Part shown: piece by piece, positions 14,164 through 33,555 of the stretch | Numbering within the stretch: position 1 is the first letter of the stretch | How the letters are laid out: each line of letters starts with the position of its first letter | NCBI GenBank assembly: GCA_020438485.1 | Contig: JAGQUM010000011.1 | Location: forward strand, 1 to 33,555 | DNA length: 33,555 nucleotides | Origin: Thermoleophilia bacterium | GTDB taxonomy: Bacteria > Actinomycetota > Thermoleophilia > Miltoncostaeales > Miltoncostaeaceae | Direction: 5' to 3' | Translations under genes and position numbers: made by a program | The notes under the pieces: model-generated | What the model was told of the DNA's origin: nothing | Database searches by the model: none | The model's input: only the letters and a program-made list of their open reading frames with translations

Positions 14164-16908
14164 ATGGCCACGTATCAGCCGACCCACGCCCACACGGGGC
14201 ACCACCACGTCCACGGGCCCACCCGGTCCGCGTGGGACTACTGGAAGCGCGCGATCGTCGGGGTCATCACCGGCGTCGTCCTCGGCTTCATCATCACTTT
14301 CCTGGCGCGCTGGCTGTTCGGGTTCGACGGGCTGTGGGCCAGCCAGGTCTACTGGTCGGTCTGCGCCACCCTCGCCGGCCTCGGGTTCATCATCGGCATC
14401 GGCTGCTTCGACTGGTGGTGGGACTACCTGCGGGGCCGCAAGGTCGACTACGAGGACCACTCGCTGCACGGCGCCCGCAGCATCGGCGACTACTTCCGCC
14501 CGAACACCGACCACAAGGTCATCGGCATCCAGTACCTGGTGCTGACGTTCGGCATGTTCATCGTCGGCGGCATCCTGGCCGAGTTGGTGCGCCTCGAGCT
14601 GGCCTTCCCCGGCCAGACCATCGCCGACGGCGAGACGTACAACGGGTTCTTCAGCGGCCACGCCACGGTGATGATCTTCGGCTTCGTCATCCCGGTGTTC
14701 GGCGGCCTCGCCAACTACATCCTGCCGATCATGATCGGCGCCAAGGACATGGCGTTCCCCCGCCTGAACGCGCTGTCGTTCTGGCTGCTGGTGCCCGCAG
14801 GCGTCATGCTCGGGCTCGCCCAGTTCGTGGGCGCGTTCTCGGCCGGCTGGACCGCGTACACGCCGCTGGCGCTGCAGGGCACCACGGGGCAGACGCTGTT
14901 TGAGATCGCCGTGCAGTTCGCCGGCGCGTCGTCCATCGCGACAGCCCTGAACTTCCTGGTCACCGTCATGACCATGCGCGCCCCCGGCATGACCGTGTGG
15001 CGCATGCCGCTGTTCGTGTGGGCGCAGTCGGTGACGGCCGGGCTCGTGGTGTTCGGCACCCCGTTCATCGCCGGCTCGCAGTTCATGACGTGGTTCGACC
15101 GCGTCATGGGCACGAACTTCTTCAACGTGGGTGGCGGCGGCGACGTGCTGATGTACCAGCACGTCTTCTGGTTCTACTCGCACCCAGCCGTCTACATCAT
15201 GATGCTGCCCGGGTTCGGGATCATCTCCGACGTCATCTCGACGTTCGCGCGCAAACCGCTGTTCGGGTATCGGGCGCTGGCGTTCTCCACCGTGGCCATC
15301 GCCGTGCTCGGGTTCGGCGTGTGGGCCCACCACATGTTCGTCAGCGGCATGCCCGGCTGGCTGCGCTTCCCGATGATGATCATGACCATCGTCATCGCGG
15401 TCCCCACCGGCGTGAAGGTCTTCTCGTGGCTCGGCACGATGTGGGGCGGAAAGATCCACCTCAAGACGCCCATGTTGTGGGCCATGGGTTTCGTGTTCAC
15501 GTTCGTGATCGGCGGCCTGTCCGGCGTGTTCCTCGGGACCCTGCCGGCCGACATCCAGCTCACCGACACGTACTACGTCGTGGCGCACATCCACTACGTG
15601 TTCTTCGGCGGCAGCGTGTTCACCATCTTTGCGGGCCTCTACTACTGGTTCCCCAAGATGACCGGCCGGATGTACAACGAGCGCCTGGGGCAGATCCACT
15701 TCTGGCTGACGTTCGTGGGTTTCAACGCCACGTTCTTCCCGATGCACTGGCTCGGCGCGGTCGGCATGCCCCGGCGTGTCGCGGACTACGACGAGCGGTT
15801 CGCCGACCTGAACCTGTTCATCAGCATCGCGAGCCTCGGGATGGTCATCGGCACCGCGATCTTCTTCTACAACGCCATCAACTCGTGGATCCGGGGCCCC
15901 AAGGCGCCGTGGAACCCCTGGCGTGGCCGCAGCCTGGAATGGCTGGTCTCCTCGCCGCCGAGCCTGTTCAACTTCGACGCGGTCCCGCAGGTCGTCGGTG
16001 GCCCGTACCAGTACGGCCTGCCCGGCGCCCGCCACGCCGTGATCTTCGCGGGCGAGGACCTGGGCGGCGGCGAGTTGACCGAGGTCGACCGGCGCACCAT
16101 GCTGGTCGTCGCGAACGAGTCCGTCGGCTCGCAGGCCCTCACGGACCGCGTGCGGCAGCTCGCCGCCTCCGGTGTGTGGCGCTTCACGTTCCTCATGCCG
16201 GTCGAGGACGGCAACAACCGCGCGGCCGAGCGCCGGCTGCAGTCGGCGCTGTCCGTGCTGGCCGCGGAGGGCATCGACGCCAACGGCTCCGTGGTGTCGG
16301 GTGACCCGCTCTCGGCCATCCGTACCGCGGTGGCCGACGACGACCCGCAGCAGATCCTGCTGGTCACCCAGCCGCGCGGCGCCTCGCCATGGCTCGACCG
16401 GGACATGGTCGACCGCGTGCGCAAGGCGTCCAACCGCGCCGTCACCCACATGGTGATCTCGGGCGACGACGCGCGGACCCCGACGCGCTCGTCGGCTGTG
16501 CAGACGATCGCCGTGGTGGCGAACGACGCGATGGGCGAGGGCCTGGCGACGGCGGTGCAGGAGCGGGCCGACGGCGGCCCCGTCTCGGCCGTGGTGCTGT
16601 GCCCGCTCAGCCTCGACGGTCCCGGGTGGACCGACGACGCCGAGTCCGTGCGTGACGCGGCCGCCGAGCGCGCCCGCGCCGTCATCGCCAGCCTCCAGGA
16701 GGCCGGCATCCCGGCCCGCGGCGAGGTCATCGACGGTGACCCGGCGGAGGCCGCGCGCATCGCGCGTGACAGCTACGGTGCCACGTCTGTGCTGGTCGGC
16801 ACCATCGCCGGCCGCGGGGACGCCGACATCGTCGAGGCGGTCACCGCCGCCGCGCAACCCGTCCCCGTCGAGCACGTGTTCGTCGAAGCCGCCCCGCCGG
16901 CGCTCTAG
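14164..16908 (+). CDS. ctaD: cytochrome c oxidase subunit I, type A2, fused to tandem Usp-like domains
   Basis: A 914-residue protein in three parts. A His-rich start (HAHTGHHHVH, 8-17) leads into two extra membrane helices (about 28-85). The subunit I core (about 110-612) has all metal ligands: H166 and H477 for heme a, H475 for heme a3, and H340, H389 and H390 for CuB, with Y344 placed for the His-Tyr crosslink. YSHPAVY (338-344) replaces the usual GHPEVY, the hallmark of type A2 oxidases. N184, D195, T415 and K418 keep D- and K-channel positions. A soluble C-terminal part then holds two related alpha/beta repeats (about 644-768 and 780-908): VVANESVGS and VVANDAMGE, GDPLSAIRTA and GDPAEAARIA. 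These resemble Usp-like domains appended to actinobacterial permeases. The frame is continuous with no sign of error. The enzyme reduces O2 and pumps protons; the tail's role is unknown. Confidence 0.95.
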   Translation: MATYQPTHAHTGHHHVHGPTRSAWDYWKRAIVGVITGVVLGFIITFLARWLFGFDGLWASQVYWSVCATLAGLGFIIGIGCFDWWWDYLRGRKVDYEDHSLHGARSIGDYFRPNTDHKVIGIQYLVLTFGMFIVGGILAELVRLELAFPGQTIADGETYNGFFSGHATVMIFGFVIPVFGGLANYILPIMIGAKDMAFPRLNALSFWLLVPAGVMLGLAQFVGAFSAGWTAYTPLALQGTTGQTLFEIAVQFAGASSIATALNFLVTVMTMRAPGMTVWRMPLFVWAQSVTAGLVVFGTPFIAGSQFMTWFDRVMGTNFFNVGGGGDVLMYQHVFWFYSHPAVYIMMLPGFGIISDVISTFARKPLFGYRALAFSTVAIAVLGFGVWAHHMFVSGMPGWLRFPMMIMTIVIAVPTGVKVFSWLGTMWGGKIHLKTPMLWAMGFVFTFVIGGLSGVFLGTLPADIQLTDTYYVVAHIHYVFFGGSVFTIFAGLYYWFPKMTGRMYNERLGQIHFWLTFVGFNATFFPMHWLGAVGMPRRVADYDERFADLNLFISIASLGMVIGTAIFFYNAINSWIRGPKAPWNPWRGRSLEWLVSSPPSLFNFDAVPQVVGGPYQYGLPGARHAVIFAGEDLGGGELTEVDRRTMLVVANESVGSQALTDRVRQLAASGVWRFTFLMPVEDGNNRAAERRLQSALSVLAAEGIDANGSVVSGDPLSAIRTAVADDDPQQILLVTQPRGASPWLDRDMVDRVRKASNRAVTHMVISGDDARTPTRSSAVQTIAVVANDAMGEGLATAVQERADGGPVSAVVLCPLSLDGPGWTDDAESVRDAAAERARAVIASLQEAGIPARGEVIDGDPAEAARIARDSYGATSVLVGTIAGRGDADIVEAVTAAAQPVPVEHVFVEAAPPAL

Positions 16909-31550: not shown

Positions 31551-32117
31551 ATGACCGATGCCTCCGCCCGCGACCGGCTGCGCACGCTGCTGGTCGACCA
31601 CGCCGTGATCCGCGAGTCCGTCGTCCTGTCGTCGGGTCGCCGATCGTCCTACTACGTCGACGCCCGCCAGGTCCTGCTGGACCCCGAGGGCGCCGCCCTG
31701 TCGGGGCGCCTGGGGTGGGACCTGCTGGCGCCGCTGGAGCCCGCCGCCGTGGGCGGCCTCACGATGGGGGCCGACCCCCTGGTGTGCGCCATCAGCGCGG
31801 CCGCATGGGCCGACGGGCGTCGCGTCACCGGGTTCTTCGTCCGCAAGGAGGCGAAGAAGCATGGACTGCAGCAGTGGATCGAGGGGCCGTTCCTCGAGGA
31901 GGGCACGCCGGTGGTCGTCGTGGACGACGTGCTCACGTCGGGAGGGTCGCTGCGCATCGCGATCGAGAAGGCGCGGCAGGCCGGCGGGGACGTGCGCGGC
32001 GCGCTCGTGGTGATCGACCGCGAGGAGGGCGGCCGTGAGTCCCTGGCCGACGTGCTGGGCGACACCCCGCTGCATGCGTTGTTCACGGCGACCGAGCTGC
32101 TGGGAGACGAGCGGTAG
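31551..32117 (+). CDS. pyrE: orotate phosphoribosyltransferase
   Basis: A 188-residue PyrE, which makes orotidine-5'-phosphate from orotate and PRPP in pyrimidine synthesis. It has the PRPP-binding motif VVVVDDVLTSGGS (121-133), the flexible catalytic loop RKEAKKHGLQ and the N-terminal LSSGRRSSYYVDAR. The length is slightly below the usual 200-215 residues but no element is missing. No other pyr gene is nearby. A CCCGGC/GCCGGG stem lies at 32123-32139, just past the stop. Confidence 0.95.
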   Translation: MTDASARDRLRTLLVDHAVIRESVVLSSGRRSSYYVDARQVLLDPEGAALSGRLGWDLLAPLEPAAVGGLTMGADPLVCAISAAAWADGRRVTGFFVRKEAKKHGLQQWIEGPFLEEGTPVVVVDDVLTSGGSLRIAIEKARQAGGDVRGALVVIDREEGGRESLADVLGDTPLHALFTATELLGDER

Positions 32118-32164: not shown

Positions 32165-33016
32165 GTGATCCGCGTGGCGGGCCCCAGCGCGACCGTTCAC
32201 GTCGACGGGACGCCGGTGGAGGCCAGCTTCACCCCGCGGCTGCCCGGGGGGCCCGCGGTGGCGGGCGACCGGGTGGACGTGGACCTGCGCGCCGGCACCG
32301 GCGTGGTGAAGGCCGTCCGGCCGCGCCGCACGCTGCTGTCGCGCGGTGAGTTCTCCACGCGCAACCGCGCCCGCCCGCTCGTCGCGAACGCCGACCTGCT
32401 GATCGTGGTCGCCGCGGCCGCCGACCCGCCGTTCCGGCCCCGGTTCGTCGATCGCTACCTCGTGGCCGGCGAGTTCGGCGGGCTCGACTGCGCGCTGGTG
32501 ATCACGAAGATGGACCTGTCGCACGACGCCGAGCTCATCGCCCGGGCCGCGCAGGTCTACGGCGACGTGGGGTATCCCGTCATCACGGGTTCCAGTGACG
32601 ACCCCGGCACCGTGGCGCGGGTGCGGGACCTCATCGGCGGCAGGGCGGCGGCGCTGTGCGGGCACTCCGGCGTGGGCAAGTCGTCGCTGACGCGCGGCCT
32701 CACCGGGGTCGCGCGCGCGGTGGGGGACGTCAGCCGCCGTGTCGGCAAGGGCCGCCACACCACCACGGACCCGCGGTTCATCCCCATGCCCGGGGGCGGC
32801 GCCGTCGTCGACACCGCGGGGGTGCGCACGTTCTACGTGCCCCCCATGGACCCCGAGGACCTGGCCCACGGCTTCCCCGAGATTCAGGCGGCGGCGGCGG
32901 GCTGCCGGTTCCGCGGCTGCCGACACGGCGGGGAGGCGGGCTGCGCCGTCCCGGGGAACGTCAGCCCCGGCAGGCTCGACAGCTACCGGCGCCTGCTGGC
33001 ATCCATCGTCACGTAG
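32165..33016 (+). CDS. rsgA: ribosome small-subunit-dependent GTPase RsgA
   Basis: A 283-residue circularly permuted GTPase that helps late 30S maturation. An OB-fold N-terminus is followed by G4 TKMD (114-117), then G1 GHSGVGKSS (166-174) and G3 DTAG (216-219), in the permuted order G4-G1-G3. The C-terminal zinc site is C247, C252, H254 and C260. GGAGGG at 32155-32160 fixes the GTG start at 32165. It follows pyrE by 47 bases. Confidence 0.95.
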   Translation: MIRVAGPSATVHVDGTPVEASFTPRLPGGPAVAGDRVDVDLRAGTGVVKAVRPRRTLLSRGEFSTRNRARPLVANADLLIVVAAAADPPFRPRFVDRYLVAGEFGGLDCALVITKMDLSHDAELIARAAQVYGDVGYPVITGSSDDPGTVARVRDLIGGRAAALCGHSGVGKSSLTRGLTGVARAVGDVSRRVGKGRHTTTDPRFIPMPGGGAVVDTAGVRTFYVPPMDPEDLAHGFPEIQAAAAGCRFRGCRHGGEAGCAVPGNVSPGRLDSYRRLLASIVT

Positions 33017-33041: not shown

Positions 33042-33070
33042 TTGCGTCGCACGGAGGCGACACGTAGGTT
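33042..33070 (+). promoter_or_regulatory. promoter of the repeat-protein gene
   Basis: TTGCGT (33042-33047), a 17-base spacer and TAGGTT (33065-33070). It has the same -35 and spacing as the tRNA-Phe promoter. Transcription would begin near 33077, leaving a leader of about 60 bases with a proper ribosome-binding site. Confidence 0.55.
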
Positions 33071-33087
33071 TGTGCGCACTCGCACAA
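33070..33087. promoter_or_regulatory. perfect dyad over the start point, putative operator
   Basis: TTGTGCG and CGCACAA form a perfect 7+7 palindrome around CACT, and GG/CC pairs extend it past a bulged T. It overlaps the last base of the -10 and the predicted start point. That is a typical place for a repressor site, though an RNA hairpin at the 5' end is also possible. Confidence 0.5.
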
Positions 33088-33138
33088 CCAGGCGGGTCGA
33101 CCTCGAGTGGCCCGTGCGCGTCCCCCTTGGAGGCGGAG

Positions 33139-33555
33139 ATGCGGCAACGCCGTTCGGATGGTTCGCTGGGTCTGATCACGTTGAGGTTCCCCCCACCGCT
33201 GTCCGGCGGCGCGCAGAAGACGGGGTGGGAGGCGCTCGACAAGTGGGTCGGCGGGGGCGGCGGATCCGGTGGTGAGGCGGCCGCGGGCGGCGCGGAGGCG
33301 CCCGCGGGCCCCGCGGCCGCGTCCGGTGACGCCGGCGGGGCCAAGAAGACCGGCTGGGAGGCGCTCGACAAGTGGGTCGGCGGCGGCTCCACGGGCGGCG
33401 CCTCCGCGGCGGACGCACCCCCCGCGCCGGCGGCGGACGCACCTCCCGCGTCCGGTGACGCCGGCGGGGCGAAGAAGACCGGCTGGGAGGCGCTCGACAA
33501 GTGGGTCGGGTCGTCCAAGGGCGAGACGGCCGGCCGCGCCGAGCAGGCCAGGGAC
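33139..33555 (+). CDS. GWEALDKW tandem-repeat protein, 5' part
   Basis: A 139-codon open frame that runs off the window end. After 25 residues (MRQRRSDGSLGLITLRF start) come three copies of a KTGWEALDKWVG block beginning at residues 26, 69 and 112, an exact 43-residue (129-bp) period. The linkers are Gly/Ala/Pro/Ser-rich, and GDAGGAKK precedes copies 2 and 3. Each block looks like a short amphipathic helix with two Trp six residues apart, spaced by disordered linkers. I know no family with this motif. GGAGG (33129-33133) serves the ATG. No signal peptide is evident. The C-terminus is unseen, so a further domain may follow. Confidence 0.75.
   Translation, partial: MRQRRSDGSLGLITLRFPPPLSGGAQKTGWEALDKWVGGGGGSGGEAAAGGAEAPAGPAAASGDAGGAKKTGWEALDKWVGGGSTGGASAADAPPAPAADAPPASGDAGGAKKTGWEALDKWVGSSKGETAGRAEQARD

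Follow-up and report, generated by a model that had tools for sequence, protein, structure and literature searches.

Several described proteins carry short motifs on a disordered chain. EPYC1, the linker of the algal pyrenoid, has several short helical motifs on such a chain and binds RuBisCO, and CsoS2, the scaffold of the alpha-carboxysome, is a disordered bacterial scaffold built of repeats. In the non-catalytic region of E. coli RNase E, a membrane-targeting helix and short motifs that bind partners lie on a disordered chain. Here we analyzed a 33,555-bp stretch of DNA from a member of the Miltoncostaeaceae, referred to below as the window, which ends within a gene whose product repeats one short Trp-containing motif (the core). 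This repeat protein matches a multivalent disordered scaffold, that is, one motif repeated on a disordered chain, as a layout only. Its likeness to EPYC1 is likewise confined to layout, with motif copies along a disordered chain that would gather a partner; no likeness of core sequence was recognized, and the putative membrane anchor is a feature of the repeat protein. CsoS2 shares the repeats on a disordered scaffold, but by inspection its repeat motif is unlike the core. The RNase E region contains different motifs once each, whereas the repeat protein contains one motif many times and has no catalytic domain.

A first-pass annotation, made from the DNA alone, had compared the layout with EPYC1 and CsoS2. 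Read as kinship, this resemblance fails, as the nine family genomes tested are without RuBisCO and BMC shell proteins. The RuBisCO large subunit (PF00016) was found in 0 of these nine genomes, with controls matching in 5, and the BMC shell protein (PF00936) also in 0 of nine, with controls matching in 2. Identity with EPYC1 or a pyrenoid linker was rejected since RuBisCO, its binding target, is missing from the nine genomes, and identity with CsoS2 since carboxysome shell proteins are missing from them. By analogy, the working principle may still be alike. Searches of Pfam-A and NCBIfam with three members returned nothing over cut-off, so the view that the motif lies outside annotated families stands for these two collections. 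No solved structural relative of the repeat protein was found, no paper in the library searched contains the motif strings, and of nine papers naming Miltoncostaea none seemed relevant from its title. Proteins of this architecture class have been described before, whereas the family itself, the motif, the anchor, and the fixation throughout the lineage appear to be new.

The repeat gene in the window and on contig C6

The window is the whole of contig C48, from a source genome of 2.58 Mb that is about 95% complete. Features of the locus are given in Table 1. Translation of the gene's forward-strand reading frame up to the contig end placed KTGWEALDKWVG at residues 27, 70, and 113 of 139, and the corresponding DNA cores start at 33223, 33352, and 33481. 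The three tandem copies and their exact 129-bp spacing were thus borne out by both the translation and the pattern search of the genome, with each copy one residue further along than first reported (26, 69, and 112). The exact 43-residue period proposed at the same time applies to the window copy only, since spacings in relatives range from 22 to 57 residues. Elsewhere in the 2.58-Mb genome, the core pattern occurs at one unrelated place with 2 mismatches, and a reversed control pattern had 0 matches.

Table 1 Features of the repeat locus, with positions in the window unless a contig is named
Feature	Position	Strand	Remarks
pyrE-like phosphoribosyltransferase	31551..32117	+	Conserved upstream neighbor
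rsgA (RsgA GTPase)	32165..33016	+	Conserved upstream neighbor
Promoter-like -35 TTGCGT, N17, -10 TAGGTT	33042..33070	+	Based on conservation
Dyad TTTGTGC-GCACTC-GCACAAC	33069..33088	+	Overlaps -10 / presumed start site
Ribosome-binding site GGAGG	33129..33133	+	5 nt 5' of ATG; read from sequence
Repeat protein gene, 5' part	33139..33555	+	139 codons, ATG start, open to contig end
N-terminal conserved segment LRFPPPLSGGA	33181..33213	+	RRFLPPIAGGA / FRFPPPxAGGA in relatives; missing in short genus-g9 forms
Core 1, TGWEALDKWVG	33220..33252	+
Linker 1	33253..33348	+	Gly/Ala-rich, no aromatics
Core 2, TGWEALDKWVG	33349..33381	+
Linker 2	33382..33477	+	Gly/Ala/Pro-rich, no aromatics
Core 3, TGWEALDKWVG	33478..33510	+
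Repeat gene 3' end	G000:C6:1-69		22 codons + stop; assembly gap between C48 and C6 parts

The 3' end of the gene was located on a second contig. The ASCH-like protein of a relative, searched against the window's genome, matched right at the beginning of contig C6, where the first 69 bases translate to EPDGQSSGGGMMGFLRRLFGGG-stop, the C-terminal segment that relatives also have. The gene's 3' end reads ...SSGGGMMGFLRRLFGGG-stop, and the next gene is the same downstream gene as in relatives; the C-terminus of the window's own copy is MMGFLRRLFGGG. Because the start of C6 carries the relatives' C-terminal segment and a stop codon, the window's repeat gene can be taken as intact in kind, with the assembler having broken it within the repeats. 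Extending the sequence, as the first-pass annotation had proposed, therefore yielded a C-terminus and a stop codon, and the frame, whose possible break just past the window had been a concern, is unbroken. Contigs also end in the repeat gene in six other genomes (G006, G010, G013, G015, G016, and G028).

Elsewhere in the window, positions 14164-16908 encode cytochrome oxidase subunit I, with PF00115 over residues 120-557. Its C-terminal extension of ~350 residues has no Pfam match and by eye resembles universal-stress-type alpha/beta sequence.

Distribution, gene order, and upstream region

The suggested search for the motif in other genomes placed the gene in 35 of 42 Miltoncostaeaceae genomes and in 0 of 59 relatives outside the family (101 relatives searched at the protein level). 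When 299 genomes of the class were searched with a profile, family members alone were returned, and a scan of 84,980 species returned 30 loci, all of them multi-motif or cut arrays. The gene is single-copy per genome at a fixed locus, with homologues across 12 genera. No second motif-bearing protein was found in nine genomes at up to one mismatch, barring single non-motif matches. None of the seven family genomes without a match is a demonstrated absence, because the locus is missing or cut there: five assemblies lack the syntenic rsgA (G014, G020, G022, G023, and G038, the rsgA match in G022 being a GESGAGKS paralogue), and in two (G034 and G036) this gene runs to the contig end. Apparently, every member of the Miltoncostaeaceae carries the repeat gene. 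No viral relatives of the protein were found in IMG/VR, nor was plasmid carriage of the gene. Among the loci, L048, L060, L062, L064, and L074 come from MAGs titled Bifidobacterium breve or Acidobacteria; the repeat gene places these MAGs in the Miltoncostaeaceae, and they look mislabeled.

Gene order in the family is conserved as pyrE-rsgA-repeat gene-NUDIX-ASCH-groES, with NUDIX and groES named by Pfam and the ASCH-like gene by eye. In sister-family genomes, rsgA is followed by other genes, and no same-position analogue of the repeat gene was found behind it. In the small genus g9 (L038-L040), a 357-residue protein that by eye is class I fructose-bisphosphate aldolase-like directly follows the repeat gene.

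Relatives outside g9 have TTGAC(C), N17-18, and TA[AG]GTT at the place corresponding to the promoter-like element of Table 1, where a generic sigma-70 promoter scan made no call. A dyad, TTYGTGC-N6-GCACRAA, starts two bases inside the -10 box and is present with 0-1 mismatch in 12 of 17 upstream regions outside g9; only 0.03% of shuffled regions reach two or fewer mismatches. This dyad may be an operator. A Rex-type or other regulon was rejected, since the sites found by a genome-wide search were few in each genome, scattered, and without the coherence of a regulon.

Cores, linkers, and the C-terminal helix

Intact relatives consist of a short N-terminus, then 2-14 cores spaced 22-57 residues apart, then a C-terminal helix. 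The N-terminus is MSTKK in g9, and elsewhere it is a segment ending in RRFLPPIAGGA or FRFPPPxAGGA. The core consensus is T-G-W-E-x-L-[DE]-K-[W/H]-V. Among the 131 cores of 31 proteins, position 5 can be Ala, Asp, Ser, or Glu, position 7 is Asp or Glu and rarely Gly or Ser, position 8 is mostly Lys, and position 9 is Trp in 123 cores, His in 7, and Tyr in 1; the search pattern itself fixed or limited the remaining positions, whose invariance therefore carries no evidential weight. Trp residues outside the pattern occur in the C-terminal segment, in two N-terminal FWPP sequences, and in two cores cut by contig ends, and nowhere else, which means that the pattern overlooked no degenerate Trp core in these proteins. 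Between genomes, the cores have a pN/pS of 0.16, a value biased low because the search pattern fixes several residues. Core amphipathicity is mildly unusual, with 4% of shuffles reaching it. In the linkers, Ala makes up 31% of residues, Gly 28%, Ser 10%, and Pro 7%, and aromatic or large hydrophobic residues are nearly absent, in agreement with the low-complexity Gly/Ala/Pro linkers described for the window.

AlphaFold gave a mean pLDDT of 54 for both a 104-residue and a 270-residue member. Short helices were predicted at all three cores of the former and at some cores of the latter, with low confidence at the cores themselves, while the C-terminal helix reached a pLDDT of about 72-90. Such models are compatible with helix-prone stickers along a disordered chain. 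The earlier description of short conserved helices on a disordered chain with Gly/Ala/Pro linkers agrees with both the linker composition and the AlphaFold predictions. Two loci (L032:6440-7105 and L021:9-497) carry a charged, probably helical insert of ~45 residues (...LKEDLAKIRENLPEYQDKLEEKGRG) that separates the membrane helix from the last core.

In most intact members the C-terminus resembles GGGFMGWLKRLFGGK, a cationic helix. The membrane-targeting sequence of E. coli MinD, KGFLKRLFGG, has been used as a transplantable tether (PMC5471200). One member, L045, ends in GGGLMGFLKRLFGGK and contains the identical nine residues GFLKRLFGG, likewise at the extreme C-terminus. Most intact members come close to the MinD type, a short amphipathic C-terminal helix with a Phe/Leu face and Lys/Arg residues, in a likeness that is short and at the level of sequence only. 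The C-terminal peptide had no relevant match among PDB sequences. In one species (L035 and L061), the cationic helix is replaced by FAGVSAIGWALGIALLVIGVVILIVALLS, a transmembrane-type helix. The occurrence of two different anchor types in the same position speaks well, if indirectly, for a membrane location of the chain, and from these sequences we infer that the C-terminal helix binds the membrane. MinD has a deviant Walker ATPase domain, whereas the repeat protein has none and no further MinD similarity was seen. Kinship with MinD was rejected, the full-length homologues consisting of the N-terminal segment, the core array, and the C-terminal helix only, with no Pfam match. As no MinD was found above the curated cut-off in ten family genomes, the MinD-like anchor is probably a convergence and not part of a Min system. 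The first-pass annotation did not cover this anchor, the conservation throughout the family, or the shared synteny, all of which lie beyond the window.

A proposed tethered docking scaffold and its alternatives

We favor the interpretation that the repeat protein is a membrane-tethered, intrinsically disordered, multivalent docking scaffold, and we give it a probability of about one half. The C-terminal helix would tether the chain to the cytoplasmic membrane at its inner face, and each core would fold into a two-turn amphipathic helix with a Thr N-cap and a W-L-W-V face. Each of these helices would dock either a single copy of a soluble partner common to all sites or another core, and many weak sites would jointly gather the partner into a membrane-bound cluster. 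Recombination within the array would change the repeat number and keep the binding face. A broader proposal, possible and put forward tentatively, is that of a lineage-specific core protein organizing a membrane-bound condensate or cortical domain, in which MinD-like anchors and 2-14 Trp helices gather one putative housekeeping machine, with valence tuned by repeat number.

The cores could instead bind each other as Trp-faced helix bundles, with anchored chains crosslinking beneath the membrane into a network or condensate, a self-assembling cortical mesh that would require no further partner. The identical cores of each chain, their amphipathic W-L-W-V face, the aromatic-free spacers, and the variable valence would all suit this arrangement, but AlphaFold gave no confident compact arrangement (pTM 0.21-0.22, a single-chain prediction and so weak evidence). 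The minimal form, L068, has 2 cores and would be a poor crosslinker, which leaves the mesh a doubtful alternative.

In L034, L068, and L069, Trp at core position 9 is changed to His across nearly the whole array. Such a change would be expected if one and the same pocket receives every core, and it suggests as much, but gene conversion could produce it unaided. The same change suits a protein pocket better than lipid, and it bears on the possibility that the Trp cores themselves lie at the lipid interface and turn the protein into an extended peripheral membrane coat or a curvature or stress sensor, in which the C-terminal helix would be just the strongest of many membrane sites. Trp is typical of interfacial helices, and the C-terminal helix is cationic and MinD-like. 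The core TGWEALDKWV, however, is net negative and only two turns long, unlike that helix, and the cores of L035 and L061 are unchanged where a transmembrane helix has taken over anchoring. Binding at multiple membrane sites is therefore unlikely.

Core states are more similar within arrays than between them (shuffle test), and species with 97-99% identical RsgA have 3, 4, or 5 cores. From these two observations, arrays evolve in concert, gaining and losing units, in line with the first-pass expectation that repeat number may vary between strains. Gene conversion could keep cores alike with little selection on each. Taken further, the array would be a low-complexity expansion of little function, an account that the within-array similarity and the unstable copy number would fit. 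We consider it very unlikely given that the core, C-terminal helix, start region, and synteny are conserved across 12 genera and that pN/pS between genomes is low. The protein might also be read as a peptide precursor (multi-core RiPP, pheromone, or antimicrobial) from which the repeated unit is excised at the linkers. The identical short cores and variable linkers do recall multi-core precursors, but the gene is single-copy at a fixed housekeeping locus family-wide, no adjacent maturation or export gene and no signal peptide by eye were seen, and a conserved C-terminal anchor would be useless there; we find this reading hardly credible.

For the tethered docking scaffold, the wider context is that few bacterial scaffolds are both disordered and multivalent through clearly repeated stickers. 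Such genes are overlooked because the repeat breaks short-read assemblies, as happened in the window's genome. The repeat gene appears fixed, single-copy, and restricted to one family, with a recognizable membrane anchor. The natural 3-, 4-, and 5-core variants in near-identical species form a series for relating valence to membrane clustering, and the core peptide would be a bait for the lineage's core partner.
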